A stretch of 39,665 bases of DNA, from positions 1-39,665 of the forward strand of contig CAIMFH010000126.1 of NCBI GenBank assembly GCA_903840265.1, written 5' to 3'. Made by a program: the position numbers and the translations under genes. Of this stretch, positions 1,956 through 36,601 are shown one piece after another (the first letter of the stretch is position 1; every line of letters starts with the position of its first letter). The notes below the pieces were generated by a model that made no database searches, had not been told where the DNA came from, and saw only the letters and a list, made by a program, of their open reading frames with translations. This DNA is from an uncultured Schlesneria sp. (GTDB lineage: Bacteria; Planctomycetota; Planctomycetia; Planctomycetales; Planctomycetaceae).

Positions 1956-2390
1956 TCACCCTTCGAACACAGCATCAACCGGCGGACGCCTGACGGTGCG
2001 AATCAATCGCGAGCAGATTCGAGCAAGATCTCGCCCGCCGATTTCATCATTCACATAAGCGGCAGCACCTGCTTCGCGAACGGTCCATTCCAACTCGGCA
2101 TACTCAGGAGAGGCGATCACGATGATCGGGGGACCAGCAATGGCTTGCGATTGTTTGCCAATCCAGCTCAAACAGTCGGTGGGTGCAGAATTCAAAGAGA
2201 TCACGACCAGGCAATCGCTGAATTCGGCGATTCTCGGATTCAAGTCGCCGACAGTCCGGCACTCCCGCACAAATAGAGACTGATCTGAGAACTGCCGTTT
2301 GAGTTCCGGCCCCCAGTAAGGCGTTCGTTCAAATACGAGGATGCCGCGTTTCGGATTGTCCGTCAGCAGGAATGTCATCGACAGCCCCAT
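1956..2390 (-). CDS. Receiver-like protein lacking the phospho-acceptor Asp
   Basis: 144 residues with the alternating strand/helix pattern of a response-regulator receiver domain: GILVFERTPYW at the start, CLVVISLNSAP where strand 3 should be, PPIIVIASPEY as strand 4, and GAAAYVNDEIG resembling the receiver GAxGYLxK segment. Where a phosphorylatable Asp is expected after strand 3 the sequence reads SLNSAP, so it is probably an atypical (pseudo-) receiver that cannot take phosphate. No output domain is fused to it. ATG at 2390 is chosen because a GGTGAAG-type ribosome site precedes it; GTG at 2393 is directly adjacent. It is divergent from kdsA, with about 120 bases between them. Function unknown; the fold assignment is inference. 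Confidence 0.6.
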   Translation of the reverse strand: MGLSMTFLLTDNPKRGILVFERTPYWGPELKRQFSDQSLFVRECRTVGDLNPRIAEFSDCLVVISLNSAPTDCLSWIGKQSQAIAGPPIIVIASPEYAELEWTVREAGAAAYVNDEIGGRDLARICSRLIRTVRRPPVDAVFEG

Positions 2391-2510
2391 CACTTCACCA
2401 AATCAGTACGACGAAGCTCGCCAAGACGCTCGAAGTCGGTCGCAGCCGATGGAATGCTCCGCTAACATGCCGCAGGAACGGAGTGTTTCAGTTTTATAAG
2501 GAAAGCAACT

Positions 2511-3350
2511 GTGCCGAACAATCCTGTCGAGATCGGGCAATGGCGTTGTGGTCGCGATGAACCTTTGCTGTTTATGGCAGGTCCCTGCGTCATCGAGAGC
2601 GAAGAGCTTGTCCTGGAGGTTGCCAAACGGCTCGCGGATTTGTCTGCGACTCAAAATGTGCAAATTGTTTTCAAATCGAGCTTCGACAAGGCGAACCGGA
2701 CCAGTATCGATAGCTTTCGCGGGCCTGGCTTAGAGCGTGGTCTGGAAATCCTGGCGAAAGTGCGTGAGGTCACCGGCTTACCGTTGTTGACCGACGTTCA
2801 TGACCCCAGCCAGGCCGAGCCCGCCGCCGCTGTTTGCCAGGTCCTGCAGATCCCTGCGTTCCTGGCTCGGCAGACCGATCTGGTGGAAGCGGTCGCCGTA
2901 GCGACGGCGCGTCATGGGGGCATCATCAACGTCAAGAAGCCGCAATTCATGGCTCCTGAAGACATGATCCATGTCGTAAAAAAATGTGAATCGTCAGGAA
3001 ATCCGAACGTTCTACTGACTGAACGTGGGACAATGTTTGGTTACGGCCGTTTGATCAATGATTTCCGCTGTATTCCGGTAATGCAGGGGTTCGGCGGCCC
3101 GGTCATTTTCGATGCGACACACAGTGTCCAGATGCCGGGGGGAGCCACCACTGGCGGTCGACGCGAACTGGTCCCGTTCCTGGCCCGCGCCGCAGTGGCC
3201 TGCGGCTGCGACGGCGTCTTTTTCGAAACGCATCCCGATCCCGACAAGGCGTTGAGCGACGGTCCCAACATGGTCCCTTTGGCGGAACTGCCTCGCCTGA
3301 TCGACCAATTGGTCCAATTGCGGAAGCTAGCGTTGGAGTTTCGAGATTGA
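2511..3350 (+). CDS. kdsA: 3-deoxy-8-phosphooctulonate synthase (Kdo-8-P synthase)
   Basis: Condenses phosphoenolpyruvate with arabinose-5-phosphate to make Kdo-8-phosphate, the precursor of the inner-core sugar of LPS. 279 residues, normal for the family. Diagnostic segments are [69 protein letters not shown] and [18 protein letters not shown]. Cys26 in AGPCVIES corresponds to the metal-ligand Cys of the metal-dependent class (Cys11 in Aquifex), where the E. coli metal-independent enzyme has Asn. The start is GTG at 2511, supported by AAGGAAAG a few bases upstream. It shows that this organism makes LPS-type glycolipid. No other Kdo gene is adjacent. Confidence 0.97.
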
Positions 3351-3464
3351 GCGGTCATAACTTCTGACTGCAATGATGTTTGGGTAGAGTAATCGGTGGG
3401 GACAGTCGTGCCGCGAGAGGCGACGAACGCCAGCCAGATAGGATTCCCAAATTTGTTCAACACC

Positions 3465-3488
3465 TACGTGCTAAAAGACGTAGGTCAG
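3465..3488 (+). terminator. Hairpin after kdsA
   Basis: ACCTACGT at 3465-3472 pairs perfectly with ACGTAGGT at 3481-3488 around an 8-base A-rich loop, 115 bases past the kdsA stop and 46 bases before the next start. No T tract follows, so it is a weak terminator candidate or a processing hairpin. Confidence 0.35.
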
Positions 3489-3534
3489 CCGAATTCCCCT
3501 TGAGCACGCCATCAATTACCCGAGCATCATCGAT

Positions 3535-5070
3535 ATGAGACTTCCGCGTCTTTTTGCTGTCCCTGCAATTCTTCTGATTCTGGCGAGCTTCGTCGGCTGC
3601 CCGGGGAAACGCCAAGTTTCGAACACGGGGACCAGCTCAAATGAATCGTCCGCCGACGATCTGCTCGTGAGCGCCGTGCATCAGTTGCGGCCGCTGAATT
3701 ATTCGATCGACGCTGCGGCGGATAAGCCGATCAGCCTGTTGAACTCGTGGCGCGGCCTCGCACCTGATTCATCGCCAGTCATCAATGATAAGGTGCCGGC
3801 TGGCTGGATCGACGAAAGCCAGGAAGTGCGGCTGAAAGCAGAGAACTTTGATCTGCTCGACGCAGTTCATATTCGCGACGCGATGCTGACTCACGCCATT
3901 GCCAGTTACCTGTCTACGCGTGCCAGTGACGAAGTTGGGCAGGCTCAAGCGGTGTTTGATTTCGTCATCCGCAACGTGGCGCTTCGCGGTGATGATGATC
4001 CGGAAATGCCGCTCGGGATTTACCAACTCCTGCTGTTGGGACAAGGTAATGCCGAGGATCGTGCGTGGGTCACGGCGTCCCTGTTTCGCCAGTTGCGTCT
4101 CGATTCTGTCATCGTGCGACCAAAGGGTGACAAGTCACCCGACAATTGGCTGCTCGGCGTTCTTTTGAAAGGGCAGGTCTACTTATTCGATCCGCGCTTG
4201 GGACTCGCCCTGCCATCTGGCGACGCCGCCGCGAAAGTCACTCCGCCCGCAACTCTGGCTGAAATTGTCTCCCATCCCGAGTGGTTGGAGCGATTTTCCG
4301 TGCGATCTGATGGGTATCCAATCAAGGCGGAATCGCTCAAGGAAGTCGACGTCTTCCCGATCGTCGAAGTCAACTGGTGGACGCGCCGGATTCGACATCT
4401 GGAGTCCGTATTGCCAGCGAGTGATCTGTGTGTGTTGTCGGATCCTCTGTTCGACGCGACCGGACGCGAGGGGTTGCTGTCACGACTGAAAGGCGCAGGG
4501 TGGTCTCCGGATTCACTGAAGCCTTGGCCGTATCCGCAGCGACAGAACGAAGCGATGAAGAAAGCCACTCCGGCAATTAAGCAGTCGTTTGAGATTGCGA
4601 CGCAGACTTTCAACCTGCCGATCCCATTCAAGGTGAGCGAAGACGGTCAGGTCAAATTTGGCAATCCCGAGCGCAAGCTGTTACGCATCAGAACCGAACA
4701 ATTGCTCGGGAAATTTGACGACGCGACGCAGCGCTACATGTCAATCAGGCATCTGGAGATTGAGCAAGTCCCGGTGCCGGAAATGGCGGTCTTGAACCGG
4801 AAAGGGGCCGAAAATGCGATTTACTGGACGGCGCTCTGCAAGTTTGAGGCGAAGGAATATGACGCCGCTATCGAGCAGTTGAACGCCTACCTCAAACGGT
4901 ATGACAGAAGTGGGCAGTGGAGATTTGCAGCGAGGGCCCTGCTGGCCGACTGCCATGCGGAACTGGGCCACCTGAAGGAAGCAATCGACGCTCTTGAAAG
5001 GTCTCGGTCCGACGATCCTTATCGCTTGGGAAATGCCGTCCGCGTGAAGCAGTGGAAGGCCCGCCAGTAA
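3535..5070 (+). CDS. Lipoprotein with degenerate transglutaminase-like domain and C-terminal TPRs
   Basis: 511 residues. The N-terminus (LFAVPAILLILASFVGC) is a lipoprotein signal with the acylated Cys at residue 22. Residues about 100-230 resemble the transglutaminase-like fold: a helical segment (AQAVFDFVIRNVAL), then GQGNAEDRAWVTASLFRQL where active enzymes have a Cys, then DNWLLGVLLKGQVYLFDPR where the catalytic His is expected but Asn is seen; the final Asp (LFDPRLG) is kept. A catalytically dead, binding-type domain is therefore likely. Residues about 380-500 carry TPR-like helices (NAIYWTALCKFEAKEYDAAI; ALLADCHAELGHLKEAIDAL). ATG at 3535 opens the signal peptide. Likely a periplasmic scaffold; the specific role is unknown. 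Confidence 0.75.
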   Translation: MRLPRLFAVPAILLILASFVGCPGKRQVSNTGTSSNESSADDLLVSAVHQLRPLNYSIDAAADKPISLLNSWRGLAPDSSPVINDKVPAGWIDESQEVRLKAENFDLLDAVHIRDAMLTHAIASYLSTRASDEVGQAQAVFDFVIRNVALRGDDDPEMPLGIYQLLLLGQGNAEDRAWVTASLFRQLRLDSVIVRPKGDKSPDNWLLGVLLKGQVYLFDPRLGLALPSGDAAAKVTPPATLAEIVSHPEWLERFSVRSDGYPIKAESLKEVDVFPIVEVNWWTRRIRHLESVLPASDLCVLSDPLFDATGREGLLSRLKGAGWSPDSLKPWPYPQRQNEAMKKATPAIKQSFEIATQTFNLPIPFKVSEDGQVKFGNPERKLLRIRTEQLLGKFDDATQRYMSIRHLEIEQVPVPEMAVLNRKGAENAIYWTALCKFEAKEYDAAIEQLNAYLKRYDRSGQWRFAARALLADCHAELGHLKEAIDALERSRSDDPYRLGNAVRVKQWKARQ

Positions 5071-11940: not shown

Positions 11941-14900
11941 ATGTCGAGCACGGCGACCGGTTCTGGTAATTCTTCGCGATACCTCGACTTTGACGAATAC
12001 GTCGATCTTAAGCTGCAGAAGACGCGTTCGACTATCAAGACCACAGACATCCTGGTCGCGCTGGCGGGTGTCGCCGCGATGTTTCTCGGTTACCTGCTGG
12101 TGTTCGTCATTTTCGACCAGTGGGTCGTTCCCGGCGGGTTCAGCATCGGTCTGCGGTGGCTGTTGCTCTCCGCGTTGCTGTTGCTCACCGGTGCCTGGCT
12201 GGGCTGGAAAGTTGGTCGTCCCTATCTTCGCACTGTGAATCGACTGTTCGCCGCGAATGAAATCGAAAAGGCTGACGCAGATCTCAAGAGCAATCTGCTG
12301 AATCTGGTCGACCTGCGTGCTTCAGGCCGCGAGGTCGATCCGGCGATCCTGCGAGCCCTCGAGAAGAATGCCGCTGTTGGATTGCAAAAGATCGATGTGG
12401 CCCAGGCCATCGACCACCGACCCTTGATGAGAATCGCCTACGTTCTGCTGGCGGTGGTGGTTCTATTTTGCCTCTACGCACTCTTCTCGCCCAAGAAGAT
12501 TTCCAACTCGATCTGGCGCAGTTTGCTGCCTGCGGCCAAACTGGCGGTGGCGACGCAAACCGAGATCGTGGCCGTTCATCCCGGTGACGACACCGTTCCG
12601 GCCCGCGGAAGCATAGACTTCTGGGCCGACATCGCGGGCGATGTTCCTGACAAGGTCTGGCTGCACTACTCGACCGCCGATGGCAAATTCCAAGATGAAC
12701 CGATCGAATTGCGATCCGATTCGGACGCGCCGACGCGATTCAAAGGGACGTTGCCAAGTGTCGTGCAGAACCTGACCTATATCGTGCGTGCTGGCGATGC
12801 TGTTTCGCACCGGTATCACATCACGGTGAATCAGCCCCCGTCGGCCACCGTGGATCGGATCCGCTTTCAGTTTCCTGCATACATGAAACTGGAAGAGGCC
12901 GAGTTCGCAGGTGGCCAGATTGACGCTTGGGACGGCACAACCGTCAGCGTCACCGCACATACAAACATGCCAGTTAAGTCCGCGACGATTCAATTCCTGG
13001 ATACTCTGGAAACAGGGGTGAATCACGACGATGTGGCGGTGGTTGTCTCTCGCGACGGCCAGCAGTTGACGGCTTCGTGGAAGTTGGGTTTTCGATCCGA
13101 CGGAACATACTCGCGTCTGTACCAGATTCACTGCACCACCGAATTGGGGGCGACGGATCCGACGCCGATCCGGTACGCCATCACGATCCGGCCGGACCTG
13201 GCTCCTGAAGTCTCGATCCTTGAGCCGGTTCGCGACATGGATGTCCCCGCGAACGCGATCCTGCCACTGCTGGTGGAAGCTCGGGATCCCGATTTCCAAT
13301 TGAGCCAAGTGAATTTGCACGTGAAGAAGAATGGGCAGCAGGTTCACAAAGAGTCCCTGTTAAGCACTCCACAGCAACGATTGCTGGCGAAGCACGATCT
13401 GAAGCTTGATCGCCTACAGGTCAAGCCAGGCGACACGGTTGAATTGTGGGTTCAAGCGTTCGACAACCGCCAGCCACGACCGAATTCCAAAGTGACGCCG
13501 GAACTGAAGCTGAAAATTGTTGATCCCCTCAGTGAAAAAGACGCTCAACAGAAACTGGCCAATGATCAGGCGAATCGCGATCAGCGTTTGAAGGACGCAG
13601 AACAGGAACAGAATCAAGAGGGGCGACCCGATCAGAAGGCTGGTGCGGGGGAACCAGGCGATAAGCAACCGCGTGATCTGAAAGATCCCGAGCGGCGTGA
13701 TCCGCAACCGCGTCAGAAAGATCCGACCGCCAAGGACGAGCCATCGCCAAAGGAGAACACGTCGCCCGAGCAGACCGGGGATTCAGGCAAGACAAAAAAT
13801 ACACCCGGCGGACAAGACAACAAACCCAATGGCTCTGGTCAGCAAAAGAGCGACAAGAACCAATCTGGCACGTCTGAGAATAAATCTCCACAAGAGACGC
13901 CACTGAACTCGGACGGCGAGGATGATGACAAAGCCTTGGAAAAGCTGATCAATAGTTTGAAGAGGCCGAAGGACGAGCAGTCGAACCAAAGCAAAGATCA
14001 ACAGAGCAACGAGAACACCAACGAGCGAAAAACAGAACCGAAACCAGAGACATCGAATGGCGGGAATGAAGGGACCACGCAGCCAAGTCAGGAGCCAACG
14101 AAGCCTGATCAGACAGGCGCGAATAACAAGACGCCGAAGCCATCGAACGATAAGACTCAGCAAGCCAATCCGAAGAAGCCGTCTGAGCAGGATCGACCGA
14201 AGCCTGACCCCGCGTCACCGCCACAGCCTAATAAGCCGAATCAAGATTCGTCGACCAGTGGCGAGCCCAAGCAACCAATGCCTGGTAATCAGGGAGCGAA
14301 GAAGCCCGAGAACGGTGGTCCGAAACCAAACGAGACGCCACAACCAAACGGCAACAAGCCAGATATTTCAGCCAAGGGCAACGACAAGCAGGATACCTCC
14401 AAAGAGAAGGGCCCGATGGATCAAGGGGCTGGGGCAAAACCAAATGCCGATCCAAATCAAAACAAAGACGATGGAGCCGGTGCTGGAGAAGCACCGAAGC
14501 CCGACAAAATGAAGGATGGAGGGGCAGAGGGGAAAGATCCGAAGACGAACCCAAAACCCGGTGGCGAAGGCACCGAGCCGGCCGGAGCGGAAAAGCCTGA
14601 ACCAGGCGCTGGTCCGATGGGTGGCACTGAGGGGCCAATGGAGAATGGTGGCGATGCCGAGAAGCCAGCCAATCCTACTAAGGATGCACAGGCGGGTGGC
14701 GAACCCGGGAAGGCTAAGCCAGCCACTGGAAACGGAACTGGCGAAGAAAAGGAAGGTCCGTCAGCCGAAGGCCCCGAGGAACAAACGAGTCCCTCGCCGA
14801 ACGCCCAGAAAAAGACGGCCGATGGGACTGAAACGGGCACGGCGACGCCGGATCGAGATCCTGATGCCAAGTCAACGAAATCTGAAAATCCCGATCTAAA

Positions 14901-16086
14901 ACGCGACCCGAACGAAAAGCCCGCGACTCAGTCTCGAGAGGCTACGGCGCAGGAATCGAACGATCCTGCGCAACAGGCTGCCGACAACAAAGTGAAGACA
15001 CCAAAACCGCAACCCGGTGGCGCCGAGAAACAGAAGATTGAACAGACTGGCGACGGAGAGAAGACTCCACCGGGCAAGGATCCACAGAAGCAGCAGGGTG
15101 ATCCGAACGCGGCCAACGAACCCCAAAAAGGTTCGGGGCAGAAAGATCCACGCTCCAAGCAAGGAGCTGGTGGGCAAAGCGGCTCGTCGAAAGAAGATCC
15201 TGCGGGAGACCCCGGTAGCCCGAGTTCGGGTCAGGGTGATGCCGCCGATCGTTCAGGGAATCAGCAACCGACGAAGGAAAAGTCGAAAGAGGCCGGTGGC
15301 GAGAACAAGCCGGGTGCCGGTAAAGAATCTTCGGGGGGCGGCGAAAAGAAGCCCGGTTCGAAGGAAAAGCAAGACGGGTCATCCAAGAACGGTGCCGGTC
15401 AAAAGGCGGATCAGAATGCATCGGGTAGGTCCAAAGGCGAGGGCGCTGGCAAGGACGGGGCCCAAGGGGGACAGCCCGGTGAAGGTCCTATGGGAGGTCA
15501 ACCAGGCGGGACCGCCGAAGGTTCATCGCCAAGCGGAGCTGCCAGCCCTCCAGGGACGGGTCGCAACACGGGAAGCAGCGGCGAGGGGCGTCCCGGCAAG
15601 CAAGGAAATGTTCCTGCACAGGGTCAACCCGATGGAAATAACGAGCCTGCCGAATCGAACAGTTCAGGCTCAACACCCGAAGGCGAAGAAGCCAATTTGG
15701 AATACAAGAAGCAGGCGACGGAGCTGGTGCTGAAGCGACTTCAAGACGAATTGGAGCGGGGCGAGGTCGATCCCGAATTGCTCGAAAAACTGGGTTGGAC
15801 GAAAGAAGAACTTCGTCGATTCTCAGATCGCTTGAACAAGGCACTAGCAGTATCGAAGTCCGGCGACGAAACACCGGAATCACTGAGCCGGCGACAGCAA
15901 TTCGAAGAAATGCTCAAGGGTCTGGATGTCAACAAGAGCGGCACGAAACGCTCTGGCGAAAACTCACCACAGCGTGAGGTGAACCAGATCGAATCGCGAC
16001 ACAGCACCGTGCCAAAGGCGTACCGCGCCGCGTCTGAAAAGCTGAGCCGTGACGTCAGCCGACAGAAGAAGACAACGCCAAAGTAA
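11941..16086 (+). CDS. Giant DUF4175-like membrane protein with ~710-residue disordered region
   Basis: 1381 residues. Three membrane helices are visible at about 36-60, 68-90 and 160-182. Residues 200-535 form Ig/beta-like segments (PPSATVDRIRFQFPAYMKL; VSILEPVRDMDVPANAIL). Residues about 540-1250 are low-complexity, dominated by Pro, Lys, Gly, Glu, Asp, Gln, Asn, Ser and Thr, almost without aromatic or aliphatic residues and with no Cys. The last 125 residues return to ordered helix (ATELVLKRLQDELERGEVDP; RRQQFEEMLKGLDV). The N-terminal layout resembles DUF4175 proteins, which also have Gln/Pro-rich tails. It belongs with the two VWA genes upstream. Function unknown; a periplasmic spacer or peptidoglycan-spanning role is inference. 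No frameshift is seen across the repetitive part. Confidence 0.88.
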   Translation: MSSTATGSGNSSRYLDFDEYVDLKLQKTRSTIKTTDILVALAGVAAMFLGYLLVFVIFDQWVVPGGFSIGLRWLLLSALLLLTGAWLGWKVGRPYLRTVNRLFAANEIEKADADLKSNLLNLVDLRASGREVDPAILRALEKNAAVGLQKIDVAQAIDHRPLMRIAYVLLAVVVLFCLYALFSPKKISNSIWRSLLPAAKLAVATQTEIVAVHPGDDTVPARGSIDFWADIAGDVPDKVWLHYSTADGKFQDEPIELRSDSDAPTRFKGTLPSVVQNLTYIVRAGDAVSHRYHITVNQPPSATVDRIRFQFPAYMKLEEAEFAGGQIDAWDGTTVSVTAHTNMPVKSATIQFLDTLETGVNHDDVAVVVSRDGQQLTASWKLGFRSDGTYSRLYQIHCTTELGATDPTPIRYAITIRPDLAPEVSILEPVRDMDVPANAILPLLVEARDPDFQLSQVNLHVKKNGQQVHKESLLSTPQQRLLAKHDLKLDRLQVKPGDTVELWVQAFDNRQPRPNSKVTPELKLKIVDPLSEKDAQQKLANDQANRDQRLKDAEQEQNQEGRPDQKAGAGEPGDKQPRDLKDPERRDPQPRQKDPTAKDEPSPKENTSPEQTGDSGKTKNTPGGQDNKPNGSGQQKSDKNQSGTSENKSPQETPLNSDGEDDDKALEKLINSLKRPKDEQSNQSKDQQSNENTNERKTEPKPETSNGGNEGTTQPSQEPTKPDQTGANNKTPKPSNDKTQQANPKKPSEQDRPKPDPASPPQPNKPNQDSSTSGEPKQPMPGNQGAKKPENGGPKPNETPQPNGNKPDISAKGNDKQDTSKEKGPMDQGAGAKPNADPNQNKDDGAGAGEAPKPDKMKDGGAEGKDPKTNPKPGGEGTEPAGAEKPEPGAGPMGGTEGPMENGGDAEKPANPTKDAQAGGEPGKAKPATGNGTGEEKEGPSAEGPEEQTSPSPNAQKKTADGTETGTATPDRDPDAKSTKSENPDLKRDPNEKPATQSREATAQESNDPAQQAADNKVKTPKPQPGGAEKQKIEQTGDGEKTPPGKDPQKQQGDPNAANEPQKGSGQKDPRSKQGAGGQSGSSKEDPAGDPGSPSSGQGDAADRSGNQQPTKEKSKEAGGENKPGAGKESSGGGEKKPGSKEKQDGSSKNGAGQKADQNASGRSKGEGAGKDGAQGGQPGEGPMGGQPGGTAEGSSPSGAASPPGTGRNTGSSGEGRPGKQGNVPAQGQPDGNNEPAESNSSGSTPEGEEANLEYKKQATELVLKRLQDELERGEVDPELLEKLGWTKEELRRFSDRLNKALAVSKSGDETPESLSRRQQFEEMLKGLDVNKSGTKRSGENSPQREVNQIESRHSTVPKAYRAASEKLSRDVSRQKKTTPK

Positions 16087-23699: not shown

Positions 23700-25571
23700 T
23701 CATCGCATCACGATTGTGGCCGAAATCGCGTCAGGAATATTCTTATCCAGTGCCCGACGTCGATTGGGCGTCGGGTGCGAAGCGTCATGCGGATTCCACG
23801 TCCCCGCGGAACGACATTGGTTGAGTTGTCGACAGAGTTCCTGAGGGTTGCCTGGCCTTCTGTCTGGAGACTTCTCAAGGCACTGAAGGATTATTGTTTC
23901 GAGGTCGGCTTCTACTGGCGATCCCAATTTCTCGGATGGAGTCTCTGGGATATCGAAGACCTGGCTTCGTAAGATGGCATTGACGTTCATCGCGGAAAAG
24001 ATCGTCTGCCCGGTGAGCAAATAATATCCGATCGCTCCCAGCGAGTAGAGATCGCCCCGCGCGTCCAATGTGTGGGGCGCGGTGATCGCTTCCGGCGACA
24101 TATAGCACGGCGTGCCACTGATCCCGCTTGCGGCCTTGTCGAAGACTGACGAATCGCTGATCACGGTCGCCACGCCGAAGTCGAGCACCTTGACGGTGTC
24201 GGGAATGCCGCCTCGATTGCAGATCATGATGTTTTCGGGCTTCAGATCGCGATGAATCAATCCGACGGCATGTGCTTCTTTCAATGAGGCGCACGCCTGG
24301 GTCAGGAAATGAATGACGCGACTGGCTGGCAAGGGACCATGAGTTCGGACGAGCTCCGCGAGCGTCACCCCTTCCAGGTACTCCATAGCGTAGTAAAACA
24401 ACCCTTCTGGTGTGACACCGTAGTCATACACGGCGACGGTGTGCGGGCTAGTCAACTGGCTGGTCAGTTGCACCTCTGATTCAAACATCGCCAGCGCTGC
24501 AGGGCTGATCGTCGAGGTCTGCAGGACTTTGATCGCCGCGCGGCGTTTCAGCATGCAGTGGCGGGCCAGGTAAATGACCCCCATCGCACCTTGACCAATC
24601 TGGCTTTCTAGAATGTAGCTGCCAACTTGACGCAGTTGCTGCACTCGATCGGCGCGCCGTTGTTCCAAGCTTTCTTCAGCCATACTCGCCAGTTGGTCGT
24701 GAAGACTGTTGGCATGCTTGTGGTAGAGATCAACGCCGAGCAACTCCTGATCGACCTCGCCAGCGACATCAAGGAAACTGAAGTCGGGCAGTTCATTCTG
24801 CAGGCCCAACAATGTTTCAAAGCTGGTGGCGGACTCCCACAGACCGCCCGGCAGGCAAGCTGTCGCCACGCTTGTTGCGACGGTGCTCTCGCGCAGTGCT
24901 GCGCTCGCCAAGACAGCGTCTTCTTCGTGATGCAACAGGACGCAGGCCACCAACTCGTCCGGAAATCCCCAATCGTGCATGACCAGCGCACCAACTTGAG
25001 CATGATTCCAACCGAAACGCCGATTCTCTTCTTGATACAGGTCCACACCCGGTTGCAGGGCTTCCACGTAATCGTCGTAGTAGGCTTCGGTCAACAGCGG
25101 CAGTAGAAAGTCTTGAAGCAGCCCCGCGAGGTAGGCGATTTCCACATCGATGCCCAACTGGCGGGCCATTTGCTGCGCGAAGAGCGCCTTCATTCGGTTC
25201 GTCTTCTGGAACTGTGCCGAATTGACGAGTCGTGAAAATACTGTCGACGATGCGGACTGCAGCGCCGTTGTTAGCACTAGCGTCTTGGTGCGGCGCGAAC
25301 CGAGCAGGTTGACAGCTTGCCTGACCGAAGTCACGGGCTGTCGCACCCCGACCGCAGTAGAGTTGACCTGGCGCAGCAATCCCGATGTCAAAGCCGCATC
25401 GACTTCAATAGGTGCGGCAAGTTCTTTGGGGCCGGCATCCGGATCCTTCGAGATCGCAGTGAACTCAATGACAGACTGTGGAATACAGGGAAGCTTGAAA
25501 TTGCGAGGCAGGTCCAGTTGCGGACGGACCGCGACCGCAGCATCGACTATTTCATTCCAGTAAGGGGGCAT
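23700..25571 (-). CDS. HDOD domain fused to Ser/Thr protein kinase
   Basis: 623 residues. Residues about 25-290 form an HDOD domain, a catalytically degenerate HD-like regulatory fold: FKLPCIPQSVIEFTAISKDP, AVNLLGSRRTKTLVLTTAL, IAYLAGLLQDFLLPLL, WNHAQVGALVMHDWGFP and LLHHEEDAV. Residues about 317-585 are a Hanks-type kinase: glycine loop GQGAMG near 325-330, AAIKVL for the ATP-binding Lys, HRDLKPEN near 440, DFG near 462, then SGTPCYMSPEA. The active-site motifs are all intact. No membrane helix is seen, so it is cytoplasmic. HDOD domains are linked to signalling and stress in bacteria; here one probably gates or positions the kinase. The C-terminal 35 residues are unordered. Confidence 0.92.
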   Translation of the reverse strand: MPPYWNEIVDAAVAVRPQLDLPRNFKLPCIPQSVIEFTAISKDPDAGPKELAAPIEVDAALTSGLLRQVNSTAVGVRQPVTSVRQAVNLLGSRRTKTLVLTTALQSASSTVFSRLVNSAQFQKTNRMKALFAQQMARQLGIDVEIAYLAGLLQDFLLPLLTEAYYDDYVEALQPGVDLYQEENRRFGWNHAQVGALVMHDWGFPDELVACVLLHHEEDAVLASAALRESTVATSVATACLPGGLWESATSFETLLGLQNELPDFSFLDVAGEVDQELLGVDLYHKHANSLHDQLASMAEESLEQRRADRVQQLRQVGSYILESQIGQGAMGVIYLARHCMLKRRAAIKVLQTSTISPAALAMFESEVQLTSQLTSPHTVAVYDYGVTPEGLFYYAMEYLEGVTLAELVRTHGPLPASRVIHFLTQACASLKEAHAVGLIHRDLKPENIMICNRGGIPDTVKVLDFGVATVISDSSVFDKAASGISGTPCYMSPEAITAPHTLDARGDLYSLGAIGYYLLTGQTIFSAMNVNAILRSQVFDIPETPSEKLGSPVEADLETIILQCLEKSPDRRPGNPQELCRQLNQCRSAGTWNPHDASHPTPNRRRALDKNIPDAISATIVMR

Positions 25572-27736: not shown

Positions 27737-29137
27737 ATGACAAAGCGGTATCAGTGTATTGGTCTGTGGAGTATCGTGATCCTGTTCACAGGAGTCGCGA
27801 CCCTCGAGGCTTCCGAACGCGAGACTGCTGAAGTCGCTGCGGTCAGGCGGGCGCTCCCATCGGTCGGAAATATCCACACCGAAAAGTCGGCGAATTCAAA
27901 CACCCAGAACAACATCTTCAACTCCGATAAGGGGCGGAAGATCAATGGCATGGGAACTGGAATTGTCGTCGACGAACGTGGTTATCTCGTCACGAACTAT
28001 CACGTGATTGCAGATGTCGACACGATTCGCGTCGACTTCCACGACAAGAGCAGCTATCTGGCGCGACGAATCAACGTCGATCGCGAAAATGATCTCGCGC
28101 TGATCAAGATCGAGCCCGCCCATCCGCTGAAAGTGATGCCCAACGGCACCTCTTCAGACTTGATGCTGTGTGAAAAGGTCATCGCGATCGGCAACGCCTT
28201 TGGCTATCAAAGCACGGTCACAGTCGGCTACATCAGCTTCCTGGGACGTGATGTCGAAGCGAACGAAACCCAGTCCTATCGCAACCTGATCCAGACCGAC
28301 GCCGCCATTAATCCTGGTAATAGCGGTGGTCCCCTGATCAATCTGATGGGTGAAGTCATCGGAATCAACGTCGCGATTCGCGCCGGGGCCACGAAGATTG
28401 GGTTCGCAATCCCCAATGATGACGCTCGTAAAGCGATCGCCCGATTGATGAACATTGAGCAACTCGATCGAACCTATCATGGTGTGATCGCTAAGGACGT
28501 GCGAACAGCATCATCCCGCATGCTGGTCGTGGAAGGTGTACATCCCGACAGCCCAGCCTCGGCGGCCGGTCTGCGAAATGGCGACATCATCACGAAGGCA
28601 GGTCAAATCGAAATCATCGACTGTGTCGATCTGGAACGAGCCTTCCTGGGCCATCCCGTTGGCGACAAGGTCGAGTTGAGCATCAAGCGTAACGATAAGA
28701 CGGAAGCGGCATCAGTTGTCGTGGCCGCATACAGTGGCGGTCGAGTCTCGATCACCCCCGAGATTGCCACCGTCCCTCGAGCCACCGCCGTCGAAGATGA
28801 TCGCTTCTGGCAAACATTAGGTGTGAAGATCACTCTGCTGCCAACGGCTCAACGTGGCCTCGTTGGACCAAAGTACCGCGGCGGCATGCGAGTCACCGAA
28901 GTCCGCAACGATGGTCCTGCCGCTGCGAATGGGATTCAAAAGGGTGATGTCTTGGTCGGATTGGACAAGTGGGAAACACTGTCAACCGACAACGTGACCT
29001 GGATTTTGAATCAGCAACAGGCACAACTGACAGATGGTCAGGTCTCGATGAAGTTCTACCTGATCCGCGGACAGGAAACGCGATACGGGTATCTGGCGGT
29101 TTCGCTGGCACCACGGATTGCCTCCGGACAGAACTGA
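27737..29137 (+). CDS. HtrA/DegP-like serine protease with two PDZ domains
   Basis: 466 residues. A signal peptide (SIVILFTGVATLEAS) sends it to the periplasm. The trypsin-like domain carries an intact triad: His89 in TNYHVIAD, Asp119 in ENDLALIKI, Ser196 in NPGNSGGPL. PDZ1 lies at about 240-325 (VEGVHPDSPASAAGLRNGDI) and PDZ2 at about 350-450 (VTEVRNDGPAAANGIQKGDV), the DegP/DegQ order. Such proteases degrade or refold damaged envelope proteins and can sense unfolded ends through PDZ. A good rho-independent terminator follows. ATG at 27737 directly precedes the signal. Confidence 0.94.
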   Translation: MTKRYQCIGLWSIVILFTGVATLEASERETAEVAAVRRALPSVGNIHTEKSANSNTQNNIFNSDKGRKINGMGTGIVVDERGYLVTNYHVIADVDTIRVDFHDKSSYLARRINVDRENDLALIKIEPAHPLKVMPNGTSSDLMLCEKVIAIGNAFGYQSTVTVGYISFLGRDVEANETQSYRNLIQTDAAINPGNSGGPLINLMGEVIGINVAIRAGATKIGFAIPNDDARKAIARLMNIEQLDRTYHGVIAKDVRTASSRMLVVEGVHPDSPASAAGLRNGDIITKAGQIEIIDCVDLERAFLGHPVGDKVELSIKRNDKTEAASVVVAAYSGGRVSITPEIATVPRATAVEDDRFWQTLGVKITLLPTAQRGLVGPKYRGGMRVTEVRNDGPAAANGIQKGDVLVGLDKWETLSTDNVTWILNQQQAQLTDGQVSMKFYLIRGQETRYGYLAVSLAPRIASGQN

Positions 29138-32575: not shown

Positions 32576-35500
32576 ATGAGCGATTCGGGACTGGCTCGTC
32601 GCAAGCAACTTCTGCTGGATAAATTTCTGGCAGGCGAGATCGACAAAGCAACTTACGATGACCTCCTCTCCCACCTGACCGAGTTAGATTCCGCTGTTGC
32701 CGCAACGCCAGATCTCATCGACCCCGCCCCTCAAGTCTCTTCCAACGCCTCATTCGTTGTGACGGAATCGAAAACAGGAGCGAAGCAGTCCGCTTTTGCC
32801 GCTCCGATTCCCCTGTTAGATGCGGGAATGGAACTCGGCGGGTTTAAGCTGGAGCGTCGTCTGCGTCGCGGCGGCATGGGCGAAGTTTGGAGAGCGATCG
32901 ATCCCACCGCCGAGCGAATCGTCGTCATCAAGGTCTTGCCTCCTGAACTCCAGCGCAATCCCGATGAGATCGCGCGGGTCAAACAGACCTTCAATCGCGT
33001 TCACAATTTGCAGCATCAGCATATCTGTCCGGTTTACCTGCTGGGCCACGACGCCCGCTTCGGATATTTCATTGTGATGAAGTATCTGGAAGGTGACACG
33101 CTTTCTGCCTATCGCAAGACGCAAACACAACGATCGAGTCCCTTCTCGGTGGAGGCTCTGCTGCAGGTCCTGATGCCAATCGCGAAGGCGCTCGACTACG
33201 CGCACGCGCAGCACATTATTCATCGCGATGTCAAACCGCAAAACATCATGTTGAACGCCGATGGCAGCGACGTGCAACTGGTCGATTTCGGGTTGGCCGC
33301 CGAAGTCCGGACCAGTGTGATGCGGGTCAGTCAGGTTCAGATGGAAACCTGCGGCACCTATCCGTATATGGCACCTGAACAATGGCGTGGCGAACTTCAA
33401 GACGCTCGAACCGATCAATACGCACTGGCTGTGGTTGCCTATGAACTGTTGGCAGGACATCTTCCGTACGAGGCGACTGACCCCACCGTCCTCCGGATGT
33501 GCGTGCTGAATGACGCTGTGCCGCCCATCAAGGGGGTATTGCCTGACGTCCATAAAATCATCGCCAGGGGGATGGCGAAATCGCGCGCTGACCGATATCA
33601 ATCGTGTACCGCGTTGTTGCACGCGTTGTCTGAAGCCAATTCAACCGATGCCTTGGAAATACTTGATGACGACGACAACTCACCGGTGTCGCGGCCAGTT
33701 TCAAAGCCCGATCCACGTCCGTTAACATCAGTCCGCAAGCCTGCGGAGACCAAGTCGATCCGGCCGACATCGGACGCGGTGAAATCCAGTCGTCCAGTCG
33801 TCACGGGATCTACGGCTGGCGCAAAACAACCTGCGGCCAAACCTCCCAAAGCACCGTCAGTCCGAAACAAGCCGGTCGCTAACAAGTCGAAAGGCGAACA
33901 GTTCGATGATGTTGAATTTCTCGACGATGACGATGTCATTGAACCCCGTACGAATCGCCCGAAGCCCAAGTCCGTTCGAGGGCTAAAGTCCCAGGTTCGG
34001 CCGGCACCGAAGACCGCGTCGTTGGAGCAGATGAATTCACGGGCAATGCTGTGGATAACGCTGATCGGTGGGTCTGCCTGCGTCCTCTTTATCGGACTGT
34101 TTGGCTGGCTGATCTGGGCTGGAACACATCTATTCCAATCGAAAGAGGGAACGAACTCTTCCCAGCTCGCCACAAATGTGGAGGGGAATTCCGGGAATCA
34201 GGGAGACAAAGGCTCGAACGTGGCGGTCGTCCCCAACCCGGTGGAACAGGGGGGCGTTAAACCTGTCGAAAACACCGCCTTGGGTTTGAGGTATCGCTGG
34301 GAACAGGGCAAGCCTTATGTGTATGCGGTCAAGATTGAAATGGAACCTGATCCCGACGTTGTCGTGTCCATGAGCGGCAATACAACGTATACGATCGGCC
34401 AGCCAGTCGCACAGAAGAAGGACGATGCCGAACCGGGAACAGGGACCGGAACCGGCTTCGTCGTGCAATCCAACGGGTATCTCGTAACTTGTCATCACGT
34501 CGTCGAGGACGCCGCGGAAATCGAAGTGGCGGTCGGTGGGAAAAAATATCCCGCGACAGTCGTCATGGAAGATATCGAGCACGATCTGGCAGTTATTCGC
34601 ATTCAGGCCACTGGGCTTCCGGCTCTGAGGATCGCGGATTCCGAGCAGGTTCAAGTCGGAGAAGAAGCTCGAGCCATCGGCTTTCCGTTCTCCAGTATCC
34701 TGGGGGACAACATCAAAGCGACACGTGGCACGATCTCGGGCATCAATCAGGAAGACGGCCGCAAGGTCTTTCAAGTCGACGCCGGAATCAATCCGGGCAA
34801 CAGCGGCGGTCCGTTGGTGAACGAGCGAGGGGAAGTCATTGGTGTCAACTTCGCCAAGCTGAAAGAAGAGATGGCGACGAATGTCGGCTTTGCCGTTCCC
34901 AGCAATGACGCCATCGCGTTACTTCGCAGTGCCAACGTCGGTTTTTCTGCGAGTACCGGAAGATCGCCAAAATTGGAAGGCCCCGAACTCGTCAAGCAAG
35001 TCTCTGCGGCAACCGCCTTGATCACTGTGAAAACGGGGGGTGGCCTGGCCAAGGGATTGCATCATTTTGAATTGCGAAGCTATGGCACCTTGAATACGTC
35101 GGTTCGATCGAAAACGGGCAAATCCGTTGATCATTCCAGTCCAGCGATGCGACGTGCGCATCTCAGTTCGGTGGTCAACGGATCGGAATCGCAGCCTGCC
35201 ATCGTCGAAACCGACGCGCTGGGGCGAGTTCATGAACGCTCAGGCGACGGAGGTGCGTTGCCAGCGTATCTGGGGCCGCTGTCGATTCTGGTGCTGGAGC
35301 AACTCCCCTCGGTCCGTCAGCAAACGTGGATCAATTCCTTTGCCGTGACGATCGTCATGAGCGAAGAGGCAGGGCCGGGATTTGGTGGGCCTGGGGGATT
35401 CGGCCGTCGCTTCCGTCCGCCGCGATTTCCAGGTTTTGGTGATAGCGAAACCAAGACGACGCGAATCCCCGCCACAATTCGCATCGCTTACCACATGCAG

Positions 35501-36601
35501 GACGCAAAGGGTGACCTGCTGAAGATCAAGAAGGATTTCGTCCTGGAAACGCGAGAACCGCGAATCAAACTGACCGGCACGGGTACCTTCACCTTCGATT
35601 CCAAAATCGGTGTGCCACGAAATCTCGATTACTCGGCGATGCTGATCGAGAACGAAAAGAACGAGACGACCAAGCTGCCGATCAAAGTCATGTATGATTT
35701 GATCGACGGAAACGTGCCGCGCGACAACATCGCTCAAGCTCCCCCGAACCCCGTTAAGCCGGCGACGCCCGGTAAGCCAGTCGACAAGGATACTCCATTG
35801 CCGTCGGGCACAAAATTGTTGGCCGAATGGGCTGATAAGTGGCTTCCGGTCGAGGTCCTGGAATCGAGACCTGATGGCACCGTCAGAATTCATTGGGTCG
35901 GTTGGGGCGACAATTTCGACGAGAATCTGGCTCGATCTAAGCTGCGGTTTCCCGAAGGTGGCTCGCCGTTTGTTCCTGTGCAGACTGTCGCTGCTGCCGA
36001 ACCACAGGAACAGTTGCTGCGATTGAGCGCACAAGAAATTGATCAATGTCTGGCAGACCTGAGCGGCGGCCATGCTGGGAAAGCGAATGCCGCTGCGAAT
36101 CGTCTACAACTCGCGATCCCGCTGGACGAACGACGGACGATCGTCGTGAAGTCCTTGGAGCCAATGCTGAAAGCCAAGGACACGTTTCGACGCAAGCAGG
36201 CTGTTGATATATTGGGAACGTGGGCCGGACCGGAAACGATCCCAGCCTTGATTCGCTGCTTGGATGAATCCGCGCTGCTAGTTAAGCTGGCAGCGATTGA
36301 TGCCTTGGGCAAACTGAAGGACGAACGGGCAGCGGAACCGCTGGCCCGACTGATGGCAGAGCCCGGGCCTCGAGTTCAGGCTGTTAAGGCACTGCAATTG
36401 CTCGGTGCCAAAGCCGAGACTGCGATCGCCGCCATGCTGACGCACCCGGAACCAGAGGTGCGACAAGAAGCTTGTCGTCTGTTAAAAGACGCGGGGACTG
36501 CCAACAGTTTGCAAGCCTTGGAATCGTTGCGCGACGATGCGAACAAGTCCGTGGCGAACGCGGCGAAAGACGCGATTGCCGCGATTGGAAAGCGAATGTG
36601 A
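32576..36601 (+). CDS. Ser/Thr kinase - membrane helix - trypsin-like protease - Tudor-knot-like - HEAT fusion
   Basis: 1341 residues. Kinase at about 85-345: RRGGMGEVW near 98-106, VVIKVL, HRDVKPQN near 216-223, DFGLA near 238, TCGTYPYMAPEQW. Residues 350-485 are a Pro/Lys/Ser-rich linker. One membrane helix (WITLIGGSACVLFIGLFGWL, about 492-515) follows. Outside it lies a trypsin-like protease with an intact triad: His641 (TCHHVV), Asp670 (EHDLAVI), Ser743 (GNSGGPL); no PDZ is seen. Residues about 780-1060 are beta-rich with a Gly/Pro/Phe/Arg-rich insert. About 1081-1131 (WLPVEVLESRPDGTVRIHWV, then GWGDNFDEN) resembles a Tudor-knot/chromo-like barrel. Residues 1155-1341 are HEAT repeats. AAGGGAAA upstream supports ATG 32576. 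Likely a transmembrane sensor or effector; the pairing of functions is inference. Confidence 0.92.
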   Translation: MSDSGLARRKQLLLDKFLAGEIDKATYDDLLSHLTELDSAVAATPDLIDPAPQVSSNASFVVTESKTGAKQSAFAAPIPLLDAGMELGGFKLERRLRRGGMGEVWRAIDPTAERIVVIKVLPPELQRNPDEIARVKQTFNRVHNLQHQHICPVYLLGHDARFGYFIVMKYLEGDTLSAYRKTQTQRSSPFSVEALLQVLMPIAKALDYAHAQHIIHRDVKPQNIMLNADGSDVQLVDFGLAAEVRTSVMRVSQVQMETCGTYPYMAPEQWRGELQDARTDQYALAVVAYELLAGHLPYEATDPTVLRMCVLNDAVPPIKGVLPDVHKIIARGMAKSRADRYQSCTALLHALSEANSTDALEILDDDDNSPVSRPVSKPDPRPLTSVRKPAETKSIRPTSDAVKSSRPVVTGSTAGAKQPAAKPPKAPSVRNKPVANKSKGEQFDDVEFLDDDDVIEPRTNRPKPKSVRGLKSQVRPAPKTASLEQMNSRAMLWITLIGGSACVLFIGLFGWLIWAGTHLFQSKEGTNSSQLATNVEGNSGNQGDKGSNVAVVPNPVEQGGVKPVENTALGLRYRWEQGKPYVYAVKIEMEPDPDVVVSMSGNTTYTIGQPVAQKKDDAEPGTGTGTGFVVQSNGYLVTCHHVVEDAAEIEVAVGGKKYPATVVMEDIEHDLAVIRIQATGLPALRIADSEQVQVGEEARAIGFPFSSILGDNIKATRGTISGINQEDGRKVFQVDAGINPGNSGGPLVNERGEVIGVNFAKLKEEMATNVGFAVPSNDAIALLRSANVGFSASTGRSPKLEGPELVKQVSAATALITVKTGGGLAKGLHHFELRSYGTLNTSVRSKTGKSVDHSSPAMRRAHLSSVVNGSESQPAIVETDALGRVHERSGDGGALPAYLGPLSILVLEQLPSVRQQTWINSFAVTIVMSEEAGPGFGGPGGFGRRFRPPRFPGFGDSETKTTRIPATIRIAYHMQDAKGDLLKIKKDFVLETREPRIKLTGTGTFTFDSKIGVPRNLDYSAMLIENEKNETTKLPIKVMYDLIDGNVPRDNIAQAPPNPVKPATPGKPVDKDTPLPSGTKLLAEWADKWLPVEVLESRPDGTVRIHWVGWGDNFDENLARSKLRFPEGGSPFVPVQTVAAAEPQEQLLRLSAQEIDQCLADLSGGHAGKANAAANRLQLAIPLDERRTIVVKSLEPMLKAKDTFRRKQAVDILGTWAGPETIPALIRCLDESALLVKLAAIDALGKLKDERAAEPLARLMAEPGPRVQAVKALQLLGAKAETAIAAMLTHPEPEVRQEACRLLKDAGTANSLQALESLRDDANKSVANAAKDAIAAIGKRM

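Follow-up and report, generated by a model that had tools for sequence, protein, structure and literature searches.

A putative planctomycete receptor kinase carrying an HtrA-type protease nested in an outer beta domain

The window considered here, that is, the whole 39,665-nt stretch of contig CAIMFH010000126.1 (assembly GCA_903840265.1, uncultured Schlesneria sp.), contains on its forward strand a single open reading frame (ORF; positions 32576 to 36601) with an ATG start and a product of 1341 amino acids, hereafter called the fusion protein. Its sequence and the comparison with its relatives both argue firmly for a cytoplasmic Hanks-type kinase, one membrane helix, and an outside beta domain bearing an HtrA-type protease with an intact catalytic triad, and the same evidence places the protease within that other domain, between beta strands 2 and 3. 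Moreover, there are strong indications that the HtrA domain is circularly permuted, in that its usual first helix-strand follows the catalytic part. We read the fusion protein as a receptor kinase that crosses the membrane once and belongs to the planctomycete envelope, in which the barrel would act as the sensor and the protease would be gated, and we assign to this reading a probability slightly above one half (about 0.55).

The domain assignment is based on Pfam matches to Pkinase (residues 91 to 343; E = 4e-37; 128 bits against a cutoff of 31.7), Trypsin_2 (residues 625 to 757; E = 7e-34), and HEAT_2 (PF13646; residues 1195 to 1273; E = 8e-17; 61.7 bits against a cutoff of 27.7), and hydropathy revealed one membrane helix, starting at residue 491. 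The catalytic residues of both enzymes are present, i.e., K119, D218, and D237 in the kinase and H641, D670, and S743 in the protease. In the alignment, the protease triad is intact in all 40 rows and the kinase residues K119, D218, N223, and D237 are intact in 39 of 40, the exception being P0018, which has its called start within the kinase; in P0034 to P0039, the HRD motif reads HCD, with the catalytic Asp retained. Thus, the domain list, the topology, and the two active sites put forward in the original prediction, which had been made from the letters of the DNA, are borne out by Pfam, hydropathy, and conserved catalytic residues. Its interpretation holds as to the domain list and the single-protein reading and was incomplete in that it overlooked the beta domain hosting the protease as well as the apparent permutation of the latter. 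The region assigned to the Tudor knot scores below the Pfam cutoff for PF11717 (14.7 against 20.8 bits in the fusion protein; 17.2 and 12.8 bits in two relatives), but a 14-row profile of this region matches the EAF3/MRG and PHF20L1 barrels of the Protein Data Bank (E values from 1e-4 to 5e-3), and these matches support a predicted Tudor-knot-like fold despite the low Pfam score. At the other end of the protein, the conserved motif RRKQLLLDKFLAGEIDKATYD is tentatively labeled SHOCT-like by us, and for residues 1 to 45 Pfam gave no SHOCT match up to an E value of 10, the top match being Death (E = 0.096).

As regards the position of the protease, the AlphaFold model of residues 540 to 1341 (mean predicted local distance difference test [pLDDT], 83.7; predicted template modeling score [pTM], 0.52) presents a beta domain of 11 predicted strands, two of which (residues 570 to 612) precede the protease and nine (residues 831 to 1042) follow it. 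This host domain has no Pfam match up to an E value of 0.1, and its second half, searched alone, gave nothing at the cutoff. In P0121 (locus L155), from the same genus, the kinase and the helix are followed by both halves of the beta domain side by side, with no protease. The gap between the two halves has a median of 185 residues in 44 proteins with kinase and protease and of 183 residues in 35 kinase-less proteins with the protease, against a median of -22 (range, -28 to -6) in 33 proteins without the protease and a value of -26 in P0121. Furthermore, the same beta domain is found in secreted-looking planctomycete proteins (P0221 to P0283) that, different from the fusion protein, have neither protease nor kinase, and in which SLA1 homology domain 1 (SHD1) occurs in 58 of the 60 scanned. 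The hhalign match between this family and the fusion protein (probability, 99.8%; E = 5e-30) spans the nine-strand half of the beta domain and the Tudor-like part, and of the 63 proteins without a protease, 33 match the profile of the first half. The barrel region of P0221, as modeled by AlphaFold, has 11 main strands, with strands 2 (residues 55 to 71) and 3 (residues 74 to 89) joined by a two-residue turn, and the number and order of the strands equal those in the model of the fusion protein. The SHD1 proteins consist of the beta domain, helices, and SHD1, and their source names give no function. In the fold comparison of the barrel, outer-membrane porins and autotransporter barrels rank level with or just below lipovitellin/apoB; therefore, we claim no family for it.

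In HtrA proteases, the N terminus comprises a helix-strand, then the LA loop, and then the GSGF strand, and this canonical order is recognizable in L132, with the helix-strand VAKKVSPSVVQIKV, a variable loop, and the GSGF strand. In the fusion protein, the place before the GTGTGF sequence is occupied by barrel strand 2, and a helix-strand (residues 802 to 811 and 813 to 820) comes after the protease. The upstream sequence does not conform to the helix-strand that in HtrA precedes the LA loop and the GxGSGF strand, and the downstream segment does; the latter is modeled with a pLDDT of about 93 to 94 and is separated from the barrel by a stretch with a pLDDT near 53. If the N-terminal helix-strand has been displaced downstream, the host domain would therefore stand where HtrA has its LA loop.

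A matrix for the HtrA N-terminal segment, built from 23 canonical segments (leave-one-out scores, 4.6 to 43.7), scores higher downstream than upstream of the protease in 120 of 126 proteins, with an offset of 15 to 18 in 117, and the best place in the whole protein is just after the protease in 69, with ranks 2 to 20 in the other 57; all such counts come from related, non-independent sequences and are not to be read as probabilities. When the segment is moved in front of the protease core, the score against the canonical profile rises by a median of 6.85 bits, while the median gains of the controls are 1.6 bits (shuffles), 1.2 bits (random segments of the same protein), and 0.6 bits (native upstream segment). 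The moved segment beats all 40 controls in 71 of 126 proteins, where 3.1 are expected. Since the offset had been picked after the matrix result, a follow-up scan of 273 offsets was conducted, in which the nine best medians all fall 12 to 20 residues past the protease profile, with a peak of 7.4 bits and a next value elsewhere of 2.2 bits; when the scan is restricted to the kinase clade, the maximum lies at offset 13 (6.3 bits), and the next value elsewhere is 4.1 bits.

Judging from these profile scores, the signal is strong in the kinase-less relatives, as in P0094, where the segment after the protease is LAGPEVARRVTPSVAYIKV, and weaker in the kinase clade. In particular, the matrix score is positive in 74 of the 81 kinase-less proteins and the moved segment outscores all controls in 66 of them, against only 15 and 5, respectively, of the 45 kinase-bearing proteins. 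These low counts speak against the permutation, as do the fusion protein itself, for which 1 of 40 controls equals the moved segment, a cruder version of the test with a 45-residue tail, which gave no median gain, and the pTM of only 0.52. It could be argued from the weaker signal of the kinase clade and from the negative tail test that the protease is not permuted and that the helix-strand after it is simply the start of the second barrel half, resembling HtrA by chance. We consider this improbable, because most protease-less barrels leave no room for the segment (median gap, -22; n = 33), the kinase-less rows that outscore all controls are numerous, the peak of the 273-position scan falls at the segment after the protease even in the kinase clade alone, and the segment is confidently modeled and set off from the barrel.

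Two alphaproteobacterial trypsin-like proteins (L178, positions 2845 to 3879; L177, positions 2281 to 3657), ending in STVFIRCE(R) or THFIRCE, lack by eye the usual N-terminal helix-strand and show a similar helix-strand-like sequence at the end. With the matrix, L178 is weakly supported (0.6) and L177 unsupported, and two canonical controls reach 25.5 and 19.8 in the usual position; perhaps these proteins share the permutation, with only L178 scoring, and weakly so. A further feature of the protease is Cys639 (positions 34490 to 34492), two residues before the catalytic His, which 126 of 127 relatives retain; of the 23 canonical HtrA rows, 21 are readable at this position, and all of these show Asn. 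A redox or metal role is possible for this residue. A disulfide was dropped, as the candidate partner, residue 835, is Cys in many relatives and Ser in the fusion protein and its close relatives.

To define the spread of the architecture, 292 proteins were collected in three protein searches, two of which gave the best 120 of 209 and the best 120 of 3330 matches, so that the counts are lower bounds; the domain content of the relatives was assigned with our own segment profiles (domain E value, <0.05). Kinase and protease occur together in at least 45 proteins (one of them, P0129, truncated or frameshifted), and at least 18 of these share the full order of the fusion protein, with Tudor and HEAT parts; among the others, 18 have the Tudor part without HEAT, 6 have HEAT without the Tudor part, and 2 have neither (P0128 and P0007, the latter marked partial by its source). 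HEAT and Tudor are thus optional, non-essential parts, because kinase-protease relatives exist without one or the other. A misassembly or gene-calling artifact can be rejected on the basis of these proteins, and the claim of one real protein stands; likewise, the survey of the domain order disposes of the objection, raised in advance by the original prediction, that no homologue might show the same order. One relative, P0003, is 90% identical to the fusion protein, and its source names Schlesneria sp. Of the 45 kinase-bearing rows, 44 retain the complete protease triad, P0129 being the exception, and so do all 82 rows that lack a kinase match. The protease-barrel unit also occurs in 81 rows without a kinase match (one, P0018, with a miscalled start), and the kinase fusion makes up a minority of the protein family found here.

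At the genome level, a single-sequence query of limited reach detected the second half of the host domain in 61 of the 170 genomes that represent the family and in 10 of the 392 that represent the phylum. Among the loci examined, where the contig of G013 starts within the barrel and some others are cut at the start, the kinase is confined to the genus of the fusion gene (its own locus, G012, G011, and G009, plus the protease-less G004). In the genome of origin (7.5 Mb, 204 contigs), 1 of 65 matches spans kinase and protease, and this is the fusion gene itself. A generic scan of genome contigs for kinase and protease motifs gave 80 loci, none of which matched the barrel profiles, and L101 was rejected as a kinase-protease fusion, its kinase and protease matches being in separate ORFs. 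As for the neighborhood, the locus is syntenic with that of G012 over the compared stretch, a nitrilase gene lies about 4 kb upstream in G011, and no shared neighbor was found in G009.

In a tree of kinase domains, obtained with a quick method and including 45 of the other kinases, the fusion proteins lie on one side of a branch with a Shimodaira-Hasegawa-like approximate likelihood ratio test (SH-aLRT) value of 94 (not starred), together with P0121 and with two kinase-only rows, P0130 and P0127, the latter with an apparently frameshifted tail. Stars mark both a side with HEAT (27 rows) and a side without it (22 rows). P0130 is a kinase of the fusion clade that ends right after the membrane helix, with 511 amino acids. 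In the tree of the barrel domain (186 rows), the protease label and the kinase label change twice each, and one kinase-label change is due to P0018, the sole kinase-less row in the kinase group. In both trees, P0121 falls within the kinase-protease group. These results are compatible with a single kinase fusion, after which P0121 lost the protease, though trees of this type cannot separate gain from loss. The folded parts are constrained, under purifying selection: compared with G012, the ratio of nonsynonymous to synonymous substitution rates (dN/dS) amounts to 0.06 in the kinase, 0.07 in the protease, 0.05 in the displaced segment, 0.10 in the second half of the barrel, 0.12 in the Tudor part, and 0.08 in HEAT, and the first barrel half shows zero amino acid changes. 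The three linkers give 0.25 to 0.32, and with respect to G011 and G009, conservation is lowest in the linkers that flank the membrane; in particular, the outer linker is 27% and 34% identical to these, respectively, and has a dN/dS of 0.25 to G012.

Among known systems, the best NCBIfam match of the fusion protein is NF033483 (PASTA kinase PknB/Stk1), with 221 bits, below the cutoff of 450. PASTA kinases have the kinase inside and the sensor outside, and the fusion protein resembles them in this layout; different from them, it has no PASTA domain detectable by Pfam, and its outside part is the protease-barrel unit. One or more C-terminal PDZ domains are usual in HtrA proteins. In contrast to DegS, DegP, and HtrA, no PDZ domain was found in the fusion protein by Pfam up to an E value of 0.1, the protease is inserted in another domain, a kinase is attached, and the N-terminal helix-strand is apparently at the other end; the matches to TIGR02037 and TIGR02038 are all below the family cutoffs. 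With regard to planctomycetes, the membrane kinases described in the main text of a survey (PMC11032199) are mostly single-pass and carry periplasmic TPR, WD40, sulfatase-modifying, and DUF1080 domains. The fusion protein is similar to such transmembrane Hanks-type kinases in having a cytoplasmic kinase, one helix, and a large periplasmic accessory domain, and it differs from those described in that main text in that an intact HtrA-type protease, embedded in a beta domain, makes up its outside part; the words "trypsin," "protease," and "peptidase" have no occurrences there. Among the literature entries listed, no title or abstract start dealt with a kinase-trypsin or kinase-HtrA fusion or with a circularly permuted HtrA.

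According to the receptor-kinase reading, the barrel would bind an envelope ligand or a damaged protein, the Tudor and HEAT parts, where present, serving as docking surfaces on the outside, and ligand binding would rearrange the protease via the former LA-loop junction. The outer linker and the helix would bring kinase domains together, clustering being the usual activation route for Hanks-type kinases, so as to allow mutual phosphorylation and then phosphorylation of cytoplasmic targets, and the protease would be gated and serve as an output or amplifier. Given that P0121 retains kinase and barrel and that many kinase-less relatives retain barrel and protease, the input shared by these forms is most likely the barrel. 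Several points weigh against this reading: we infer the coupling of periplasmic proteolysis and cytoplasmic phosphorylation, and the ligand, substrate, cleavage, and phosphorylation steps are putative; the source of P0121 is one 4641-base contig of a draft genome of 1560 contigs; the outer linker of P0008 and P0009 shows a further hydrophobic peak, so that a single helix is not assured in all relatives; and the comparison of G012, G011, and G009 yielded no conserved operon partner giving a pathway.

It is possible to hypothesize that the protease is instead the main output, the kinase being one of several swappable cytoplasmic attachments that would control or place a membrane-anchored HtrA-like protease from the inside. 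The many rows without a kinase match that bear the same unit and the minority share of the kinase fusion agree with this, as do P0041 and P0043 to P0047, in which PF13717/PF13719, Zn-finger-like according to the name given by one source, replaces the kinase match. We hold it to be rather unlikely, though, given that P0121, inside the kinase-protease group, retains the full kinase and the barrel without the protease and that the kinase ranks with the best-conserved parts. Even less probable appears the presence of two independent enzymes tethered at the same membrane spot without allosteric coupling: the coupling is putative, and the linkers flanking the helix are long and variable, but both active sites are kept in one chain with few kinase-label changes on the barrel tree. 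This co-occurrence suggests that having kinase and protease together is selected, which is not proof of coupling. The original prediction also considered a self-cleaving receptor; in such a reading, the protease would cut its own outer linker and free or switch the kinase half. Protease and a flexible 56-residue outer linker do share one chain; the claim is nevertheless unsupported and very unlikely, as the flanking linkers are the least conserved parts with respect to G011 and G009, with no conserved or fixed cleavage site seen, and the protease-less relative keeps its kinase. A defense system was rejected as well, the best 25 of 34 PADLOC matches all lying within the kinase part (some extending into the linker, to residue 427) or the protease part. 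As to a more detailed version of the receptor-kinase reading, a permuted HtrA with new ends at the LA loop may be inserted in a hairpin of a soluble beta-barrel of the lipid-transfer type, whose ligand would gate proteolysis, one clade having been wired to a Hanks-type kinase through the helix; we advance this only tentatively.

The features of the fusion gene are collected in Table 1. Elsewhere in the window, an HtrA-type protease gene with the usual N-terminal order (P0293; positions 27737 to 29137, forward strand) lies 3.4 kb from the fusion gene, and a second kinase gene (positions 23700 to 25571, reverse strand) has an N-terminal HDOD domain (residues 27 to 216) and a Pkinase domain (residues 320 to 577) according to Pfam. 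An ORF of 1381 amino acids (positions 11941 to 16086, forward strand) has no Pfam match up to an E value of 0.001; within it, at 14 to 15 kb, the AT skew reaches 0.57, and a search for a tandem array found none.

Table 1. Features of the fusion gene, with positions in the window
Feature	Residues	Positions	Strand	Basis
Whole gene	1 to 1341	32576..36601	+	Homologues along full length
Conserved N-terminal motif	5 to 36	32588..32683	+	Alignment; dN/dS 0.02 (residues 1 to 40)
Hanks-type kinase	86 to 350	32831..33625	+	Pfam, conservation; K119 32930-32932, D218 33227-33229, D237 33284-33286
Cytoplasmic linker, poorly conserved	351 to 488	33626..34039	+	Alignment, dN/dS
Single membrane helix	491 to 513	34046..34114	+	Hydropathy
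Outer linker, poorly conserved	514 to 569	34115..34282	+	Alignment, dN/dS; pLDDT <50 for modeled residues 540 to 567
Host beta domain, first half (strands 1 and 2)	570 to 612	34283..34411	+	AlphaFold model; adjoins second half in protease-less relatives
HtrA-type protease core	621 to 797	34436..34966	+	H641 34496-34498, D670 34583-34585, S743 34802-34804
Helix-strand, read as displaced HtrA N-terminal helix-strand	798 to 822	34967..35041	+	Helix and strand in model; profile tests
Host beta domain, second half (strands 3 to 11)	831 to 1042	35066..35701	+	Model; profile match to protease-less SHD1 family (probability, 99.8%)
Tudor-knot/chromobarrel-like domain (putative)	1076 to 1127	35801..35956	+	Profile searches; absent from some relatives
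HEAT repeats	1152 to 1341	36029..36598	+	Pfam; helices in model

If the receptor-kinase reading is correct, the fusion protein would be a bacterial receptor with protease and kinase in one chain, and it would offer a testable case of an outside protease and an inside kinase sharing one receptor, for which the relatives lacking either enzyme would serve as natural controls. If the permutation is also true, the protein family would provide a natural HtrA fold opened at the LA loop and rebuilt inside another domain, showing how the regulation of a protease can shift from PDZ domains to a barrel.

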